Made by a program: the position numbers and the translations under genes. Under the pieces are notes generated by a model. It did no database searches, was not told the DNA's origin, and saw only the letters and a program-made list of their open reading frames with translations. Shown here piece by piece: positions 35,309 through 63,992 of a DNA stretch of 64,000 nt (the stretch's first letter is position 1; every line of letters starts with the position of its first letter). The DNA is from a bacterium. GTDB lineage: Bacteria > JAMCPX01. The stretch is taken from positions 186,001 through 250,000 of the forward strand of contig JAJYLN010000002.1 of NCBI GenBank assembly GCA_021787665.1. The letters run 5' to 3'.

Positions 35309-37723
35309 TCACCAAATCGCCATGCCGATCGTTACCAGCAGCACCAGGACCGATACGCTCAGTCCGAGGTAGAATAATTTCGGGGTATAGGAGATAACGG
35401 CGGTATAGGTCCCTTTCGGCAGCTTTATTCCCTGGAAAAGGTAGTTTACGTGATACAGCCGTACTTCTCTGCCGTTTATCGAGGCGTGCCATCCGGGATA
35501 GGAGGGCTCGTTTATGACGAGGAAGCCCTTTGTGGCGGCTTGCACCTCTACGACGTGCCGGCCCGGCACGTCGGTTGTTCTCGAGATCCTGATCCCGGCG
35601 GTATCGAGCCCTCCCTGCTCATGTATGCCGGTCACGATGGCGGTATGCAGGAGCTGTCTGCTGCGGGTTGACAGGATAGAGAGTGCCTGCCCGTCTGTTG
35701 CTACGGGTTGTACGGCCTCGGCAGGGTAGATAAGCGGCTTTGCCGATACATTCTCCCATAAGGAGATTCCGTTGTCCGAGACTATGGGCCTGTAATAGGC
35801 GCTGTACGGATCGGGCATCGGTTTCGTTGATGCCGGCGTGGAGATAGACGTTGCCTCTGCCGAGTTAAGGATAAGATACCTTATGCCGGCAAGGCCCGCG
35901 ATAACAGGGTCCGGCACGCCCGGCAAGTTGTAGTATTCCCCGCTTGCATCAGGCCTGAGGATACGGCCGGGGAACAGCACGGACAGGAAGTCCTCGTACC
36001 TTTTTGAGACGACGATATCAAATCCCCTGAAATCCCTGAGGCCATACAGCAACCCGCTGTTTGGCCTGATGAGCTCGGTATTTGTATAAAATGTATAGTT
36101 ATCCGAGCCAACATGCTGCAAGGTATCGACTATCTTGTTTTTTGGTTTTAAGCTAATCGAAGTAAGAAGGGGGTTATATCCCATGCCGAACATGCCGTAG
36201 AGAAAGAGGTCTGCTACACTCAATACCATAAGGCACATACCCGTCATTTTTGCCCCGGTTAGCCCGGAGTCGAGAAGCATGAACAGGACTGCAAGCACGT
36301 AGAGTATGAGCCCAATCATGGTCATGCCGCTTATCCCTATATCGACAGGGCTGAAGCTTTTAATCCACACTATCGTATGGTTGAGCACGGACAGGGATGG
36401 GGTCATGTCGAATTTTCCGGCAACGATAAAGGCTGCAGCAATCAGAGTGAGTGCTATCGCAGTTATGGCACGGGGCTTGCTGCGCATGCGTCCATTGCGG
36501 AGATAGAGCGCGTTTAAGCCAAAGCCGGCAAGTACGGACAGGCTGAATTCCGTAACGGCCATAAATCTGAAGGCGCCACCGAGCCGTATGATAGGTATCT
36601 TGAGGAGCCACGAGAAGGGCGGGATCACATAGCTTATGCCTGTGGTCACGATCGCGGTCATCAGAAATGGCAGAACGGCTCTCTTGTGACGTCGTACGGT
36701 AAGTATCGAGAACAGCGCGAGCATCAGGGATATTACCCCGATGTAGGTGGTAGATTGATGGAGCATCGGCATGCCTCCTTCTCTTAAGAAATAGAAGAGG
36801 GGCGTCACCCACATGGTGAGCGTCCATAGCGCCATGCTGCGCAGCACCTGCACGGACGTGGACCTGAGATAGTATGGCTCGCTCTTGAGGATAACATCGA
36901 GGAATGGAACAAGCTGGACGGATGCAAGCAGATAGCCGGCAGCCAGTCCTGCGATTATGATGAGGATTATCTTTGCCCTGCCGGTGGATGCCATCGCTGT
37001 CGAGCCGCTGGTAGCAGGCCCCTCAGCCAGCGGCGGTGTCAAGACGACCACTCTTGCCAGCATATATAGTACCAGGCCGATACTGCCGACAATGGTGGTC
37101 TCTGCATGGCCGGACAGGAGGGACAGCCCCACCGAGATTATGAGCCCGGACAATACCCCTGCTATGCGCCTGCCGCTTTCCGCGTTCCGTGCCAGCCTTT
37201 CGGAGAAATAAAAGAACCACGGTATGAAGCTGCCGGCATCCGATGCCGTGTGATGGATATGGAACGTCATCATGAACGCCGAGAATACCCATGTTATGCT
37301 TCCCAGAAGGCATGCATTCATATTTAACGAGAGGAGATCCAGCAGCAGGAACATACCCAGGCCCGTTATGATAAGCTTGAGGAGCGAGGCAACGAGCAGG
37401 CCGCTGGAGAATGGGAAAGGCAGGGCAGCGATGTTGTAGGGGGAGAGGACGGCGCTCTGATCGTCAGCAAAGAACGGCGCCCCGCCGAATATGTAGGGGT
37501 CCCAGAACGGGAAATGGCCGCTGTGCATCTGGTCGTAATAGAGCTTTCTGAAAGGAGTATAGATCAGGTGAAGGTTGTCCTGCTGTGCGCTCCCGGCAAG
37601 GAGCGTCCGCCTGTACTCGTTCAGCAGCTTTACGGAATTATGCTGCAGGAACAGGGACGGCAGGAAAAACAGGAATATCGCCCCCAGCAATAGTGATATG
37701 CCGTACCATCGTCTCATTGGCAA
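35309..37723 (-). CDS. YfhO-family large membrane protein, copy 2
   Basis: 804 residues, same plan as the 18225 protein: an N-terminal helix, then HSGHFPFWDPYIFGGAPFFA and DDQSAVLSPYNIAALPFPFS, about a dozen transmembrane helices up to ~residue 530, and a C-terminal extracytoplasmic domain with VINEPSYPGWHASINGREVR, HVNYLFQGIKLPKGTYTAVI and a last helix. Sequence similarity to copy 1 is clear but distant, and the base composition is richer in GC, so the two are old paralogues rather than a recent duplication. Convergent with polA (7-base gap). Possibly transfers sugars outside the membrane. Confidence 0.87.
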   Translation of the reverse strand: MPMRRWYGISLLLGAIFLFFLPSLFLQHNSVKLLNEYRRTLLAGSAQQDNLHLIYTPFRKLYYDQMHSGHFPFWDPYIFGGAPFFADDQSAVLSPYNIAALPFPFSSGLLVASLLKLIITGLGMFLLLDLLSLNMNACLLGSITWVFSAFMMTFHIHHTASDAGSFIPWFFYFSERLARNAESGRRIAGVLSGLIISVGLSLLSGHAETTIVGSIGLVLYMLARVVVLTPPLAEGPATSGSTAMASTGRAKIILIIIAGLAAGYLLASVQLVPFLDVILKSEPYYLRSTSVQVLRSMALWTLTMWVTPLFYFLREGGMPMLHQSTTYIGVISLMLALFSILTVRRHKRAVLPFLMTAIVTTGISYVIPPFSWLLKIPIIRLGGAFRFMAVTEFSLSVLAGFGLNALYLRNGRMRSKPRAITAIALTLIAAAFIVAGKFDMTPSLSVLNHTIVWIKSFSPVDIGISGMTMIGLILYVLAVLFMLLDSGLTGAKMTGMCLMVLSVADLFLYGMFGMGYNPLLTSISLKPKNKIVDTLQHVGSDNYTFYTNTELIRPNSGLLYGLRDFRGFDIVVSKRYEDFLSVLFPGRILRPDASGEYYNLPGVPDPVIAGLAGIRYLILNSAEATSISTPASTKPMPDPYSAYYRPIVSDNGISLWENVSAKPLIYPAEAVQPVATDGQALSILSTRSRQLLHTAIVTGIHEQGGLDTAGIRISRTTDVPGRHVVEVQAATKGFLVINEPSYPGWHASINGREVRLYHVNYLFQGIKLPKGTYTAVISYTPKLFYLGLSVSVLVLLVTIGMAIW

Positions 37724-57188: not shown

Positions 57189-58223
57189 ATGGACCGCATC
57201 ATCTATAGATGGGACCTCGATAAGACCTACCTGAAAACGGAATTTGAGACAGTCAAAGGACTCGTGAGGACAGCCTTCCAGTCCGCCGAGGAGAAAGAGA
57301 GCGTTCCGGGCGCACCATCGTTGCTTAAGGAGCTGCAGAAGGACGAGGGAAACAGCGTATACTTCATATCCGGCAGTCCTAAGCAGATGCGCAAGGTCCT
57401 CGAACAGAAGCTCAGGATCGACGGCATCAACTGGACGGAGCTTGTGCTGAAGCCGAATCTTCAGAACCTTTTGCACGGGAGGTTCCATGCGCTCAAAGAG
57501 CAGATCGGCTACAAGCTGCCCGTACTGCTCGAAGACAGGATGAAGTCCGGACAGAACTCCAGGGAGGTCCTCTTCGGCGACGATGCAGAGTCCGATGCGT
57601 ACATATATTCCTTGTATGCTGATACGATCGCGGGCAAGGTGAACGAAGGGACGATAGGGGAGATTATGGACCTTGCTCATGTGCCCACGGTAAACAAAAA
57701 AAAGTCAGTACACGTCGTCAGGCACCTGGAGTTCTCCGATGCCGTCGGCAGAATATTCATCTATCTCGAGAAGAGGTCGCCCCCGAAGGGGTTCGATATA
57801 TACGGGAGCAGGGTCGTCCCGATTTACAACTATTTCCAGGCCGTGCTGGTCCTGTATACGGAGGGGCTCATGAAGATGACCTCCGTGATAAGGATCATAC
57901 TCGACCTTGTTTTCGAGTACAGGACCACAGCGTCGACTTTCGCCAACTCGTTCCAGGACCTGCTGCGGAGGGGCATGATCGACATGGCCCGGTCCGCCGA
58001 GATCATCGAAGGTGTACGGCACAGCCTGGGCCAGAAGATAATCCCTCTGCCCCAAAATTTCTATGAGGACCTGATGGCCAAGCTCGATACGCTGAAAGGC
58101 ATCGAAGAAAAAGACGATACGGGCGGCACTATCCGGCCGATAGACTATATCGCCCTCTTTCAAGATCAGCACAGGAAGCAGGTGAAGCAGAAAAAGTCCC
58201 TGTTCGACAAACTTTTCGGCTGA
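57189..58223 (+). CDS. HAD-like App1/DUF2183-type phosphatase
   Basis: 344 residues, beginning right after the plsX stop. The start MDRIIYRWDLDKTYLKTEFE contains the HAD motif I D-x-D-x-T; SVYFISGSPKQMRKVLEQKL is motif II with the Ser, and VLFGDDAESDAYIYSLYADT the acidic motif IV. This is the pattern of App1/DUF2183 proteins, one of which is a phosphatidate phosphatase in yeast. Residues ~170-344 form an extra helical domain not recognised. Linkage to plsX suggests a role in phospholipid metabolism, an inference. Confidence 0.82.
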   Translation: MDRIIYRWDLDKTYLKTEFETVKGLVRTAFQSAEEKESVPGAPSLLKELQKDEGNSVYFISGSPKQMRKVLEQKLRIDGINWTELVLKPNLQNLLHGRFHALKEQIGYKLPVLLEDRMKSGQNSREVLFGDDAESDAYIYSLYADTIAGKVNEGTIGEIMDLAHVPTVNKKKSVHVVRHLEFSDAVGRIFIYLEKRSPPKGFDIYGSRVVPIYNYFQAVLVLYTEGLMKMTSVIRIILDLVFEYRTTASTFANSFQDLLRRGMIDMARSAEIIEGVRHSLGQKIIPLPQNFYEDLMAKLDTLKGIEEKDDTGGTIRPIDYIALFQDQHRKQVKQKKSLFDKLFG

Positions 58224-58237
58224 ACAGATGGGCACCC

Positions 58238-59167
58238 ATGGATGAGAAACAGGGTATCGTCATCATTGCAGGACCGACCGCTACCGGGAAAACCGGGCGC
58301 AGCATAGAGCTTGCCCTGTCTTTCAGGGGGGAGGTCGTCAACAGTGATTCCAGACAGGTGTACCGGTATATGGACATTGGTACCGCAAAGCCGGACCACG
58401 CTCAGATGAACGCTGTTCGACACCATATGATAGATATCGTGGATCCCTCCGTGCGATTCAATGCGGCACGGTATATCGATATGGCCGATGCGTGCATCGG
58501 TGAATTGCGCGACCGGGGGTATGTTCCCTTTATCACCGGCGGGACCGGCCTTTACATAAAAGCCCTGCTGTATGGTCTTGCGCCGATCCCTCCCATCGAC
58601 GATGCGGTGAGGAGCGCTATAAGGGATCAACACAGGCTGTATGGAAACGAGGCTTTGTACGAGAGGCTGAAGCAGGCCGATCCGGACGATGCGTCCCGTA
58701 TACGGGTGACGGACAGCTATAGGATCATACGGGCACTCGAGGTATTCACGGCCACCGGCACCTCCTTGCATGCCTATGCGGCACGGCATGGGTTCTCCAG
58801 GAAGAGGTACAGCTATACCTACATTGTCCTCTATGATTCCGACAGAAGCCGGTACCATGCCGCCATAGACGCGCGAACCGACAGCATGGTCGAGAAGGGA
58901 CTGATAGATGAGGTTAAGTGGTTGATCGATAAGGGATACGACAGGGACCTTCCTGCAATGAGGACCGTAGGATATACGGAGATCATTGATTATCTTCATA
59001 AGAAGACAGACCTTACTACTGCAGTAGCGCTTATCAAGAAACATACGAAGGCCTATGCGAAAAGACAGGTCACGTGGTTTAAAGGCATAAAAGATGCATT
59101 ATGGGTTGATATGCAGGACGGGAACGACCGATTGAACGAGCTCGTAAAGAGGGCAATTCATGCCTAA
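58238..59167 (+). CDS. miaA: tRNA dimethylallyltransferase MiaA
   Basis: 309 residues. Adds a dimethylallyl group to A37 of tRNAs reading U-initial codons. P-loop [87 protein letters not shown] and [15 protein letters not shown] with [15 protein letters not shown] at the end: a complete set. The following regulator begins within its last 8 bases, so the regulator may be expressed from this transcript. Confidence 0.97.
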
Positions 59168-60749
59168 GACGCCCGACGGCTTCGTAAAACAGTTGAACAG
59201 CAAGAAAAAGCAGCTTACGGTGCTCTACGAGGTAAGCAAGCAGCTTGCGTCGACGATAGACTTCAGTGCATCCATCCATTCGAGCCTGAAGCTGCTGGCG
59301 ACGTACCTCGATATCCAGAGGATAGCCCTGTTCGTGCTCGAGCAGGAGACAAAGGAGTTCGTGATACGCTACGCATATGGCTTTACACAGGAAGAGAGGC
59401 AGAAGGGCAGGTACCGGCTGGGTGAAGGGATAACGGGCAAGGTAGCAAAGAGCGGGATACCCATCGTGCTGCCGGACGTGAAGGACGAGCCGATGTTCAT
59501 GAACAAGACGGGAAAGGAGATCAAAAAGGACAGCCTGTCGTACATCGCGGTGCCCGTGAAGATAGACAAGAAGGTCGTGGGCGTTTTGAGCGTGCAGAGG
59601 CAACTCACGGACGAGAGCTCCTTCGAGGAAGACGTGAACATACTATCCATGACCGCGACGCTCATAGGCCAGGCCATGGGTCTGAACAGCGTGATAGAGA
59701 AGCAGCGCGAGGACATGGAGCAGGAAAAGTCCGTGCTGATCAGGGAATTGAAGTCCAAATACAGGCCGGAGAACATCATCGGCATAAGCCCGGGCATCGA
59801 AGAGGTGTTCGAGATCGTCGACCGGGTAAGCCCCACCAGAGCCACGATCCTGCTCAGGGGAGAGAGCGGGACCGGCAAGGAGCTCGTGGCCAGAGCGATA
59901 CACTTTCATAGTCCGAGGGCCGGAAAGCCCTTCGTCAAGATGAACTGTGCAGCGCTCCCGGACAACTTGCTCGAGAGCGAGTTGTTCGGGCACGAGAAAG
60001 GGGCGTTTACCGGGGCGTTCGAGGCAAAGAAGGGCAGGTTCGAGCTTGCAAACGAGGGTACGATATTCCTCGACGAAATAGGCGAGATTAGCCTCTCAAC
60101 GCAGGCGAAGCTCCTCAGGGTGATCCAGGAAAAGCGCTTCGAGAGGCTCGGAGGCACGAAGACGATAGAGTCCGATGTCAGGATTATAGCTGCTACGAAC
60201 AGCGATCTCGAGAAAGGAATAAAGGAGAGGACGTTCCGGGAGGATCTATATTACAGGTTGAATGTTGTGCCCATATTCATGCCCTCCCTGCGCAATCGAA
60301 AAGAAGATATTCCGCTGCTCGTGGAGCATTTCCTGCGTCGGTTCAACAAGGAGCACGGCAAGTCTCTTGTCCTGTCCGAGCGGGCCATGGAGTTTATGAT
60401 AAAGTATAACTGGCCGGGCAACGTCCGGGAACTCGAGAACATGGTGGAACGTGCGGTCATCATGACGAAAGGCAGCGTCATCAACATCAGGGACATCCCG
60501 CTGCCGGTCGTAACCGGCGAGCCTGCAAAGGACGAAACTATCGCACCGAAACAGGCTATCTTCGAGCACTACAAGCTCGACTCGGTCGTCGAGGACATAG
60601 AGAAGAGCAGGATTATGGATGCGCTCAAGAAGACGGGAGGCGTCAAGGCGAAGGCCGCCCGACTGCTCGGCATTACGCAGAGGCAGCTCGGCTATAAGAT
60701 ACAGAAGTACCGGATCTCGATCGAGGTAGACGCGACAGTCGGCTCGTAA
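59160..60749 (+). CDS. Sigma-54-dependent GAF-AAA+-Fis activator, NifA-like
   Basis: 529 residues. GAF domain (about 25-170; [60 protein letters not shown]), AAA+ domain (about 205-430) with Walker A at 234-241 (GESGTGKE), the sigma-54 contact loop GAFTGA at 281-286, Walker [11 protein letters not shown] and [15 protein letters not shown], then a Fis-type HTH (about 480-525; [20 protein letters not shown]). This is the NifA/FhlA layout; no NifA-type cysteines are seen. It directly precedes glnA and amt, both with sigma-54 promoters, so it is their likely activator. Confidence 0.93.
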
Positions 60750-60759
60750 CCGGGCACAT

Positions 60760-60796
60760 GATTACATTCATGTCACATAGTAACAGATTTGTAATC
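60760..60796 (+). promoter_or_regulatory. Candidate activator site upstream of glnA
   Basis: GATTACA (60760-60766) and TGTAATC (60790-60796) form an inverted repeat with 23 bases between, and inside lies GTAACAGATTTGTAATC (60780-60796), close to the TTACAA..TTGTAA dyads seen upstream of amt and at 63979. Distance to the sigma-54 promoter is about 105-140 bases, normal for an enhancer. Proposed to bind the Fis-type HTH of the 59160 protein. Confidence 0.5.
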
Positions 60797-60898
60797 GCGA
60801 TACGACAAAATTGTGGAATCCGGAGGTGGTGGAAACAAGCAGATGTCGGCGTGAGGTTTCGATGAATGTCGCGCGATAGTTGTAGTTGACATATAGCG

Positions 60899-60915
60899 TT
60901 GGCATGCTATTTGCT
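60899..60915 (+). promoter_or_regulatory. Sigma-54 promoter of glnA
   Basis: TTGGCATGCTATTTGCT has GG at 60901-60902 and GC at 60913-60914 with exactly ten bases between, matching the -24/-12 consensus. Transcription would start near 60926, some 20 bases before the ATG. A TTGACA at 60886 with TATTTG at 60908 could form an overlapping housekeeping promoter. Confidence 0.85.
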
Positions 60916-60946
60916 TTAAAATTCATTAAAAAAATGAGGAGGCTCT

Positions 60947-62359
60947 ATGACACCGAAAGAGGTATTGAAGTTTATCTCGGACAAGAAGATAAGCTATGTA
61001 GATCTGAAATTTCTCGACTTCGTGGGGACGTGGCAACATTTCACGATACCCGTGCACGAGTTACAAGAAGATGTCTTTGAGGAAGGGCTCGGGTTCGACG
61101 GCAGCAGTATCAGGGGGTGGCAGCCGATACACGCGAGCGATATGCTCGTATTGCCGGATCCAGCGACCGCGGTCATCGACCCCTTTATCCATGAGCCGAC
61201 CTTGAGCATGATATGCAATATTCAGGACCCCATCACGAAAGAGTACTACACAAGGGATCCGAGGAACATAGCGAGGAAGGCGGAGAACTATCTGAAGTCC
61301 ACGGGCATCGGCGATGTGGCCTATTTCGGCCCGGAGCTCGAGTTCTTCATATTCGACGACATCCGCTACAACCAGTCGGTCAATGAAGGCTATTACTATA
61401 TAGACTCCGTCGAAGGACAGTGGAACACCGGCAGGGTGGAAAACCCGAATATTGGCTACAAGCCGAGATATAAGGAAGGCTATTTCCCGGTGTCACCCAC
61501 GGATTCCCAGACCGATATCAGGAGCGAGATCGTAACGACGATGGAGGCCATCGGACTCAAGATCGAGAAGCACCATCACGAGGTTGCGACCGGCGGTCAG
61601 GCGGAGATAGACATGGTGTTCAGTCCCTTGCTGAACATGGGCGATATGGTCATGTGGTATAAGCACGTCGTCAAGAACGTTGCCATGAAGCACAACAGGA
61701 CGGCCACCTTCATGCCCAAGCCCCTGTACGGCGACAATGGCTCCGGCATGCACACGCACCAGAGCATATGGAAGGCCGGCAAGCCCCTTTTTGCGGGGAA
61801 CGGATACGGCGGCATGAGTGAACTCGCCATGCATTACATCGGCGGCATATTGAAACACGCATCTGCTATCTGCGCCTTTACCAATCCCACGACCAACTCG
61901 TACAGAAGATTAGTCCCGGGCTTCGAGGCGCCGGTGAACCTTGCATATTCGAGCAGGAACAGGTCTGCTTCCATAAGAATACCGATGTACTCGCCGAGCC
62001 CCAAGTCCAAGAGGATAGAAGTGAGGTTTCCGGACCCCGCGTCGAACAGCTACCTCGCGTTTTCGGCCATGCTCATGGCCGGACTCGACGGCATACAGAA
62101 CAAGATAAAACCCGGTGACCCCCTCGATAAGGACATCTACGGCCTTTCCCCGGAGGAGCTGAAGAACGTTCCGAGTACGCCGGGTAGCCTCGAAGAGGCG
62201 CTCAATGCCCTGACGAGAGATCATGAATTCCTGCTGAAGGGTGACGTGTTCACGTCCGATGTGATCGAGACCTGGATCGATTACAAGACCAAGGCGGAGA
62301 TCAACCCTATCAAGCTCAGGCCGGTACCGATGGAGTTCAGCCTGTACTTCGACGCATAG
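60947..62359 (+). CDS. glnA: Glutamine synthetase type I
   Basis: 470 residues, GSI-beta form; assimilates ammonia into glutamine. A GAGGAGG SD precedes the [75 protein letters not shown] (metal/glutamate site), [40 protein letters not shown] and [17 protein letters not shown] are diagnostic. Tyr398 in [20 protein letters not shown] matches the adenylylation site of enteric GS, so activity control by GlnE is possible. Expression from a sigma-54 promoter is predicted. Confidence 0.98.
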
Positions 62360-62386
62360 CTTATTTCAATGATGAGAATGATACAA

Positions 62387-62412
62387 GGGCCATGCTGGCT
62401 ACAGCATGGCCC
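62387..62412 (+). terminator. glnA terminator, GGGCCATGCTG/CAGCATGGCCC
   Basis: Perfect 11-base stem with a four-base loop, followed by TTTCTGTT: a typical intrinsic terminator 28 bases after the glnA stop. Its stem is a compensated variant of the one at 51087-51110. Confidence 0.85.
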
Positions 62413-62476
62413 TTTCTGTTCATGAGCAGTCCCACCCGTCGTCCTTCATACTGACCCTCTATTTTGTAATACACCC

Positions 62477-62510
62477 ACAAACTTGTACATTGTGTTTACA
62501 AAATTGTTAC
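62477..62510 (+). promoter_or_regulatory. Two candidate activator dyads upstream of amt
   Basis: ACAAACTTGT (62477-62486) and TTACAAAATTGTTA (62496-62509): both have ACAA..TTGT arms with a two-base centre, and their centres are 21 bases apart, two helical turns. They lie 35-65 bases upstream of the amt -24 element. The same motif recurs at 63979-63992. Likely sites for the NifA-like protein at 59160 (inferred). Confidence 0.55.
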
Positions 62511-62541
62511 ACATTCTCGTCGCCTACAGACAGAAAAGGGG

Positions 62542-62558
62542 TTGGCATACGAAATGCT
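62542..62558 (+). promoter_or_regulatory. Sigma-54 promoter of amt
   Basis: TTGGCATACGAAATGCT has GG at 62544-62545 and GC at 62556-62557 with ten bases between, the exact -24/-12 spacing. Transcription would start near 62569, about 32 bases before the ATG of amt. Confidence 0.85.
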
Positions 62559-62600
62559 CATTATGATCTTGAACTAACGATAGGCGAAGGAGAGGAAACC

Positions 62601-63914
62601 ATGAGAAGGCTTCTACCGTATTCGATAGTGTTGTTTGTTTCGTTCATGCTGCCAGCAGCAGCATTTGCCGGCACCGCAGGTGCAGTTCAGAGCATCAATA
62701 CCGGCGACACCGCATTCGTTCTCGCCGCAGCCGCGCTCGTCATGCTCATGACGCCTGGACTCGCATTGTTCTATGGCGGTATGGTACGGAAAAAGAACGT
62801 CCTCGCGACCATCATGCAGAGCTTTATCCTCCTTGCAGTCATCAGTATCCAATGGGTCCTGTGGGGATATAGCCTCTCGTTCGGTCCGGACTTCCACGGG
62901 TTTATCGGGAGTCTTGCCTGGATAGGATTGAACCACGTCGGGCTTGCGCCTGACCCGGCCTATGCACCGACGATCCCCCACGAGGCTTTCATGATATTCC
63001 AGATGATGTTCGCCGTCATAACGCCTGGTCTTATCACCGGGTCGTTTGCCGAACGGATGAAATTCAGCACCTTCTTATTGTTCGTGGTCCTGTGGTCCAC
63101 ACTCGTCTACGATCCCATAACCCATTGGGTATGGGGGGCCGGAGGATGGCTAAAGTCCATGGGAGTCCTCGACTTTGCCGGTGGACTGGTCGTCCATCTG
63201 AGCTCGGGTATTGCGGCACTCGCCGCTGTGTTCGTCATCGGCAAGAGACATAATTACGGAAGAGAGCCGTACATGCCGCACAACCTCACTATGACCATGC
63301 TCGGGACAGCACTGCTGTGGTTCGGCTGGTTCGGATTCAACGCCGGCAGCGCACTCTCGGCGGGAGCGATCGCAACATCGGCGTTTGTTGCAACGAACAT
63401 AGCGGGTGCGGCCGGGACGCTCGGCTGGATTACGTTCGAATGGATGAAGAAGGGCAAGCCGACCATGCTCGGCGCAGCAAGCGGCGCCGTCGCCGGTCTC
63501 GCGACTATCACACCTGCATCGGGGTTCGTTGGGCCCCTCGCGGCTATCGTCATCGGGTTTGTGGCTGGCGGGATGTGTTACTACGCGGTGGGCATCAAGT
63601 TCAAGCTCGGGTATGACGATGCCCTCGACGTCGTTGGCGTCCACGGTGTCGGCGGCGTATTGGGCGTACTGGCAACCGGCATCTTTGCGACCCTCGCGGT
63701 CAATGCGGCCGGTGCGAATGGACTCCTGTACGGCAATGCCCGGCAGCTCCTCGTCCAATTGATCGGTGTCGTGGCCATCGCGGCATACAGTTTTGTCTTT
63801 ACGATAGGGATCCTGAAGTTACTCGACGCGGTGATGGGCCTGAGGGTGACCCGCGAAGATGAGATTGCCGGACTCGATGTTGCCCAACACGGCGAAGAAG
63901 GGTACAACATGTAG
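62601..63914 (+). CDS. amtB: Ammonium transporter Amt/AmtB
   Basis: 437 residues from ATG 62601 (aggagagg SD; the frame is open for 65 more codons upstream but those cover the promoter). N-terminal signal peptide RRLLPYSIVLFVSFMLPAAA then 11 transmembrane helices. DTAFVLAAAALVMLMTPGLA, LFYGGMVRKKNVLATIMQSF, FAERMKFSTFLLFVVLWSTL, the first pore His in LDFAGGLVVHLSSGIAALAA and the second in LDVVGVHGVGGVLGVLATG are diagnostic. Imports ammonium when nitrogen is scarce. A PII protein gene is not in the window but may follow. Confidence 0.97.
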   Translation: MRRLLPYSIVLFVSFMLPAAAFAGTAGAVQSINTGDTAFVLAAAALVMLMTPGLALFYGGMVRKKNVLATIMQSFILLAVISIQWVLWGYSLSFGPDFHGFIGSLAWIGLNHVGLAPDPAYAPTIPHEAFMIFQMMFAVITPGLITGSFAERMKFSTFLLFVVLWSTLVYDPITHWVWGAGGWLKSMGVLDFAGGLVVHLSSGIAALAAVFVIGKRHNYGREPYMPHNLTMTMLGTALLWFGWFGFNAGSALSAGAIATSAFVATNIAGAAGTLGWITFEWMKKGKPTMLGAASGAVAGLATITPASGFVGPLAAIVIGFVAGGMCYYAVGIKFKLGYDDALDVVGVHGVGGVLGVLATGIFATLAVNAAGANGLLYGNARQLLVQLIGVVAIAAYSFVFTIGILKLLDAVMGLRVTREDEIAGLDVAQHGEEGYNM

Positions 63915-63978
63915 GGTCTGACCATCCCCCAAAGGGCGATCCATCGAAGCGCCCCTGCAGCCCTATTCTGTTATACCC

Positions 63979-63992
63979 TTACAAACTTGTAA
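63979..63992 (+). promoter_or_regulatory. Perfect TTACAA-AC-TTGTAA dyad at the window end
   Basis: An exact six-two-six inverted repeat 65 bases after the amt stop. It is the best version of the dyad found upstream of amt and, weaker, upstream of glnA. Its place suggests that another gene of the same nitrogen regulon begins just outside the window. Confidence 0.55.

Follow-up and report, generated by a model that had tools for sequence, protein, structure and literature searches.

In E. coli, sigma-54-dependent glnA and glnK/amt are under the control of NtrC, and the second PII gene, glnB, is unregulated. Classical NifA, known from Azotobacter and Klebsiella, is associated with TGT-N10-ACA sites at nif promoters. 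Other activators have been linked to nitrogen genes by prediction. Nlh1 (NifA-like homolog 1) of Aquifex aeolicus has a speculated role in nitrogen assimilation, not fixation (PMC9866876). DVU1949 of Desulfovibrio vulgaris is a one-component activator with the GAFTGA motif, and its predicted regulon of nitrogen metabolism and transport covers nine operons (PMC4641369). Here we describe a one-component activator and its predicted targets at the end of a bacterial window, by which we mean the whole stretch of 64,000 nucleotides that was analysed.

Gene order and promoters at the end of the window

On the plus strand, the last 6 kb of the window contain miaA, an activator gene, glnA and amt. The features are as follows.

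58238..59167, plus strand: miaA (product name presumed from its sequence), synteny maintained in family relatives
59160..60749, plus strand: GAF-AAA+-Fis one-component sigma-54 activator, 529 aa, NifA/Nlh1-type
60000..60017, plus strand: GAFTGA motif codons
60588..60710, plus strand: Fis-type helix-turn-helix (HTH_8, from domain search), presumed dyad binder
60764..60773, no strand: glnA dyad 1, ACATTCATGT, weak, fits ACA-N4-TGT
60783..60792, no strand: glnA dyad 2, ACAGATTTGT, weaker, 19 bp after dyad 1
60805..60814, no strand: glnA dyad 3, exact ACAAAATTGT, 22 bp after dyad 2
60900..60915, plus strand: glnA -24/-12 promoter TGGCATGCTATTTGCT, GG-N10-GC
60947..62359, plus strand: glnA, type I glutamine synthetase
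62477..62486, no strand: amt dyad 1, exact ACAAACTTGT
62498..62507, no strand: amt dyad 2, exact ACAAAATTGT, 21 bp after dyad 1
62543..62558, plus strand: amt -24/-12 promoter TGGCATACGAAATGCT, GG-N10-GC
62601..63914, plus strand: amt, ammonium transporter
63979..63992, no strand: perfect dyad TTACAAACTTGTAA, putative operator of a second amt beyond the window

The amt start at 62601 was picked 3' of the promoter; a longer frame from 62406 would include the promoter. The contig extends 3.6 kb beyond the window edge. The second amt begins about 90 bp past the edge, and its sigma-54 promoter, TGGCATGCAAATTGCA (GG-N10-GC, contig position 250035), is located just outside the window. The 3' end of miaA overlaps the start of the activator gene by 8 bp and no dyad is found upstream of the activator, suggesting that the two genes are probably co-expressed. 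On the other side of miaA, between it and a plsX-like gene, positions 57189-58223 encode a 344-aa protein whose catalytic domain is of the phosphatidate phosphatase APP1 type.

Exact ACAA-NN-TTGT cores are found in the window at 60805, 62477, 62498 and 63981. Their number, 4 against 0.8 expected, is reached in 0 of 100 shuffles. A loose search of the window allowing up to three mismatches gave 29 against 18. Since this excess is modest, the exact core and the promoter context were used instead. A perfect promoter-like match at 36466 falls within an 804-aa gene predicted on the opposite strand, and we discarded it as a probable chance hit. Reading the dyads as hairpins or terminators was rejected by reasoning: a loop of 2 bases is too short, and the dyads are upstream of promoters.

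An earlier note on this DNA had described exact GG-N10-GC promoters at glnA and amt, two ACAA-NN-TTGT dyads 21 bases apart before amt, and a preceding GAF-AAA+-Fis activator with GAFTGA. The promoters and dyads are present as described, and the domain search identified the activator as such. The perfect dyad that the note placed at the window end is also real, and it belongs to the second amt, whose promoter is past the edge. Upstream of glnA the note had recognized a dyad in weaker form. Two weaker dyads are indeed found there (60764 and 60783), but the exact core at 60805 had been overlooked.

The activator

The domain search revealed a GAF domain, a sigma-54 AAA+ domain and a Fis-type helix-turn-helix in the activator. 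By sequence criteria it is a sigma-54 enhancer-binding protein (EBP): GAFTGA and the AAA+ domain are present, RpoN is encoded in the genome, and the target promoters are of the -24/-12 type. Over the whole protein it scores 562.3 bits with the NifA model TIGR01817, above the cut-off of 528.85. With the NtrC model TIGR01818 it scores 355, below the cut-off of 558.6, and a GAF domain is present instead of a receiver domain. The best solved match of this GAF domain is Nlh1 (4g3k, E 3e-32), and the NifA GAF domain (8jrc) is behind it.

Conservation of the dyad arrays

The miaA-activator-glnA order is maintained in family relatives, as is amt where the contig permits. In 8/8 genomes the outermost glnA dyads lie 41 bp from each other, and the 19-bp and the 22-bp step are each found in 7/8; this count leaves out G004, where the contig ends inside the activator gene. 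The amt dyad pairs are 22 bp apart in seven of the eight promoters and 21 bp apart in that of the window. At glnK the pairs are 19 bp apart in 7/7, partners with one mismatch being counted. The distance between the glnA array and its promoter is variable across relatives, whereas the inner spacing is constant, so the array behaves as expected of an enhancer. The amt dyads of the window end just 35 bp 5' of the promoter. This is close for an enhancer and counts against our main reading, in which the activator works from these dyads.

ACA-N4-TGT ranks first of 38 patterns at the family targets (glnA, 24 against 1.08; amt, 19 against 0.81; glnK, 8 against 0.46), in counts that come from related sequences and thus are not independent, with controls drawn from the same genomes. 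TGT-N10-ACA is outside the top three patterns at these targets. In the same genomes, fixed spacing and ACA-N4-TGT enrichment are both missing from the upstream regions of glnB-type genes (n=7) and activator genes (n=7). Other near-perfect dyads in the relatives are mostly inside genes or without a good promoter, and were set aside.

Four of eight amt promoters (L151, L153, L156 and L158) carry an exact extra dyad 4-5 bp downstream of the -12 GC, covering the position where transcription is expected to start. Two of these carriers are from near-identical genomes, and the dyad is degenerate in the window genome. It was noticed at amt, not at glnA or glnK. Steric shut-off of amt by the same activator is possible.

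Some relatives contain a gene of about 240 aa among the nitrogen genes (L166:1623-2348, L167:667-1392 and L170:728-1447). It resembles class I glutamine amidotransferase, as named by eye, and is missing at the corresponding place in the window genome.

Distribution of the dyad in the genome

The core dyad occurs 29 times in the whole genome, and the reversed pattern 17 times. Promoter scores of 0.9 or higher are found near 5/29 core dyads and at 1.4% of random positions. Two of the five are the amt1 pair, which has one common promoter. Another, C15:161213, is inside a 1.3-kb ORF, and this dyad-promoter pair was rejected. We then selected dyads outside genes that have, at a distance of up to 160 bp, a sigma-54 promoter scoring 0.87 or higher. 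Among the 29, this filter passes four at glnA, amt1 and amt2, plus C6:76921, and nothing else. The C6:76921 dyad precedes a small, unassigned porin-like gene and then an amino-acid-permease gene. A glnK-type PII gene on the contig of this permease operon has TTACATCTTTGTAC plus TGGCACAACACCTGCA; its dyad is weaker than the core. The glnB-type PII gene of the window genome has neither the dyad nor a sigma-54 promoter. Relatives show this contrast between glnK and glnB as well.

The earlier note had proposed a compact sigma-54 nitrogen regulon with a shared dyad, and had named equal frequency of the motif away from nitrogen genes as the outcome that would speak against it. That outcome did not occur in the genome-wide search. 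The proposal is supported in its substance, but the regulon is larger than stated, with a second amt, glnK and the permease operon as additional members.

On C6, the perfect dyad and sigma-54 promoter are followed by a row of genes on one strand that leads to glnK (L029:4501-8827; C6, about 72500-76826). First come the porin-like gene, which has no Pfam match, and the amino-acid-permease gene; after them lie a gene that looks PP2C-like by eye, one for a Ser/Thr protein kinase, and glnK, which has a promoter of its own. This association of protein phosphorylation genes with nitrogen transport is unusual.

The probable reader of the dyad

Loci were gathered by activator homology alone. Upstream of their strict sigma-54 promoters, we tallied the occurrences of 38 inverted-repeat patterns. 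At classical NifA loci (n=8), TGT-N10-ACA ranks first, 20 against 0.76 expected, which validates the method. At NifA-like loci outside the window family (n=30), ACA-N4-TGT ranks first, 16 against 1.68 expected (z 10), and without nifH-linked loci it is found 13 times against 1.26. Loci of other EBPs show no enrichment of ACA-N4-TGT (1 against 1.57), and TGT-N10-ACA is likewise not returned by them. Because the dyad tracks the activator lineage and not other EBPs, we infer that the window activator very probably binds it.

The genes downstream at the NifA-like loci include amt in Spirochaetes and Verrucomicrobia. Also identified, from sequence, were glnD, glutamate-synthase-like, nifH and nifV-like genes. 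Dyad pairs at these loci are often 29-30 bp apart. At one locus, L163, a NifA-like activator is near nifH and a nifV-like gene, and the divergent promoters carry TACA-N4-TGTA and no exact TGT-N10-ACA. The dyad code is thus wider than ammonium genes.

Several NifA-like loci have no dyad at their promoters, which counts against our main reading. The activator tree also counts against it, as the window family is on its own branch; the common motif is accordingly either ancient or of multiple origin. The reading is further weakened because the recognition helix of the activator appears close to the classical NifA helix (TPRQIAYRIQ), whose site is TGT-N10-ACA.

Short palindromes are typical of repressors, and an unlinked repressor acting on nitrogen genes could use the dyad as its operator, with the NifA-like protein working from other or weaker sites. 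The exact dyad over the expected start site in several relatives' amt promoters is in a repressor-like position. However, the dyad follows activator homologues across phyla, at loci chosen by homology alone, and not other EBP loci. It is also arranged in arrays of two or three with fixed spacing, upstream of sigma-54 promoters. We therefore consider such a repressor improbable.

The true units could also be TGT-Nx-ACA elements between neighboring dyads, not the dyads themselves. TGT-N9-ACA and TGT-N12-ACA are enriched too in the family, and TGT/ACA half-sites 9, 11 or 12 bp apart have been reported for Desulfovibrio EBPs (PMC4641369), which favors this possibility. However, the N4 dyad does not vary, whereas neighboring dyads are separated by gaps of different length (9, 11 or 12 bp, and about 19-20 in other phyla). 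In addition, the permease-operon dyad is solitary, and ACA-N4-TGT is at the top in every positive set. Together these observations make the inter-dyad units very unlikely.

NtrC, nifH and PII in the genome

The genome holds ten full EBP domains. Seven response-regulator EBPs were scored with NCBIfam models; two EBPs are outside this set, of which one has a receiver-like N-terminus and the other lacks it. Control of these promoters by an NtrC- or NtrX-type two-component regulator is highly improbable: several response-regulator EBPs exist and one is NtrX-like, but none of the seven scored reaches the cut-off for NtrC (best 443 against 558.6) or NtrX (475 bits against 600), and the dyad differs from the enterobacterial NtrC site. 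The idea that no NtrBC is needed, put forward before, stands to the extent that, of the other EBPs, none of the seven scored reaches the curated NtrC cut-off. No nifH was found at cut-off in the window's own genome (92.7% complete) or in eight relatives (one 99% complete; several of the nine incomplete).

Two PII proteins and GlnD (630 bits against a cut-off of 519.4) are encoded in the genome. The GAF domain of A. vinelandii NifA binds 2-oxoglutarate (PMC9866876), and PII acts on NifA and AnfA through their GAF-containing parts (PMC12093980). By analogy, a 2-oxoglutarate or a PII route to the GAF domain of the window activator could apply. Direct sensing of the nitrogen state by GAF had been suggested. 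Control through PII appears at least as likely, because two PII proteins and GlnD are present and PII acts on the related NifA and AnfA.

Proposed mechanism

The genes, promoters, conserved dyad arrays and the link between the dyad and this lineage of activators provide the basis for a mechanism. We are fairly confident that a NifA/Nlh1-type activator on ACA-N4-TGT arrays drives the sigma-54 nitrogen genes, and for this protein we infer binding, seating, signal and direction of control. The activator is probably expressed along with miaA. Its dimers would bind ACA(A/T)-N2-(A/T)TGT palindromes that lie upstream of -24/-12 promoters and are spaced at 19-22 bp, or roughly two helical turns. The three glnA dyads could hold three dimers, which would make up a single hexamer. 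Under nitrogen shortage, the GAF domain would release the AAA+ domain, with ring formation upon GAF switching. The freed AAA+ domain would drive sigma-54 RNA polymerase at glnA, the two amt genes, glnK and the amino-acid-permease operon. The input to GAF may be 2-oxoglutarate, PII or both, and glnK, as a regulon member, may provide feedback.

Discussion

The chances appear even that the window represents a widespread and largely unrecognised system. In it, NifA/Nlh1-type GAF activators in several phyla would use ACA-N4-TGT pairs, 19-22 or 29-30 bp apart, for ammonium assimilation without NtrBC. In the window family, the extra amt start-site dyad may allow shut-off by the same protein.

The TIGR01817 cut-off alone would label such proteins 'nif-specific activator NifA' even in genomes that lack nifH. 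The ACA-N4-TGT code, as opposed to TGT-N10-ACA, sets the lineage apart from classical NifA and makes targets predictable from DNA alone. It provides a concrete, testable nitrogen circuit for bacteria seemingly without NtrC. It also raises the question of how similar Fis-type recognition helices read half-sites in opposite arrangement.

NifA-like and one-component nitrogen activators have already been proposed (Nlh1 and DVU1949), while the operator code looks new. In the openly licensed literature searched, a distinct operator, 19/22-bp arrays, a start-site dyad and a cross-phylum code were not found described.

Nlh1 is likewise a GAF-AAA+ sigma-54 activator, and its GAF domain is the nearest solved relative of that in the window activator. 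DVU1949 is a one-component GAFTGA protein as well. It differs in that it is predicted to be autoregulated with DVU1952 and does not adjoin glnA. The enterobacterial NtrC regulon likewise combines sigma-54 control of glnA and the glnK/amt set with an unregulated second glnB. However, NtrC is a phosphorylated response regulator, and the window system is based on a one-component GAF activator. Classical NifA has the same domain order as the window activator. It uses TGT-N10-ACA at nif promoters, whereas the window lineage, without nifH, carries ACA-N4-TGT at glnA, amt and glnK.
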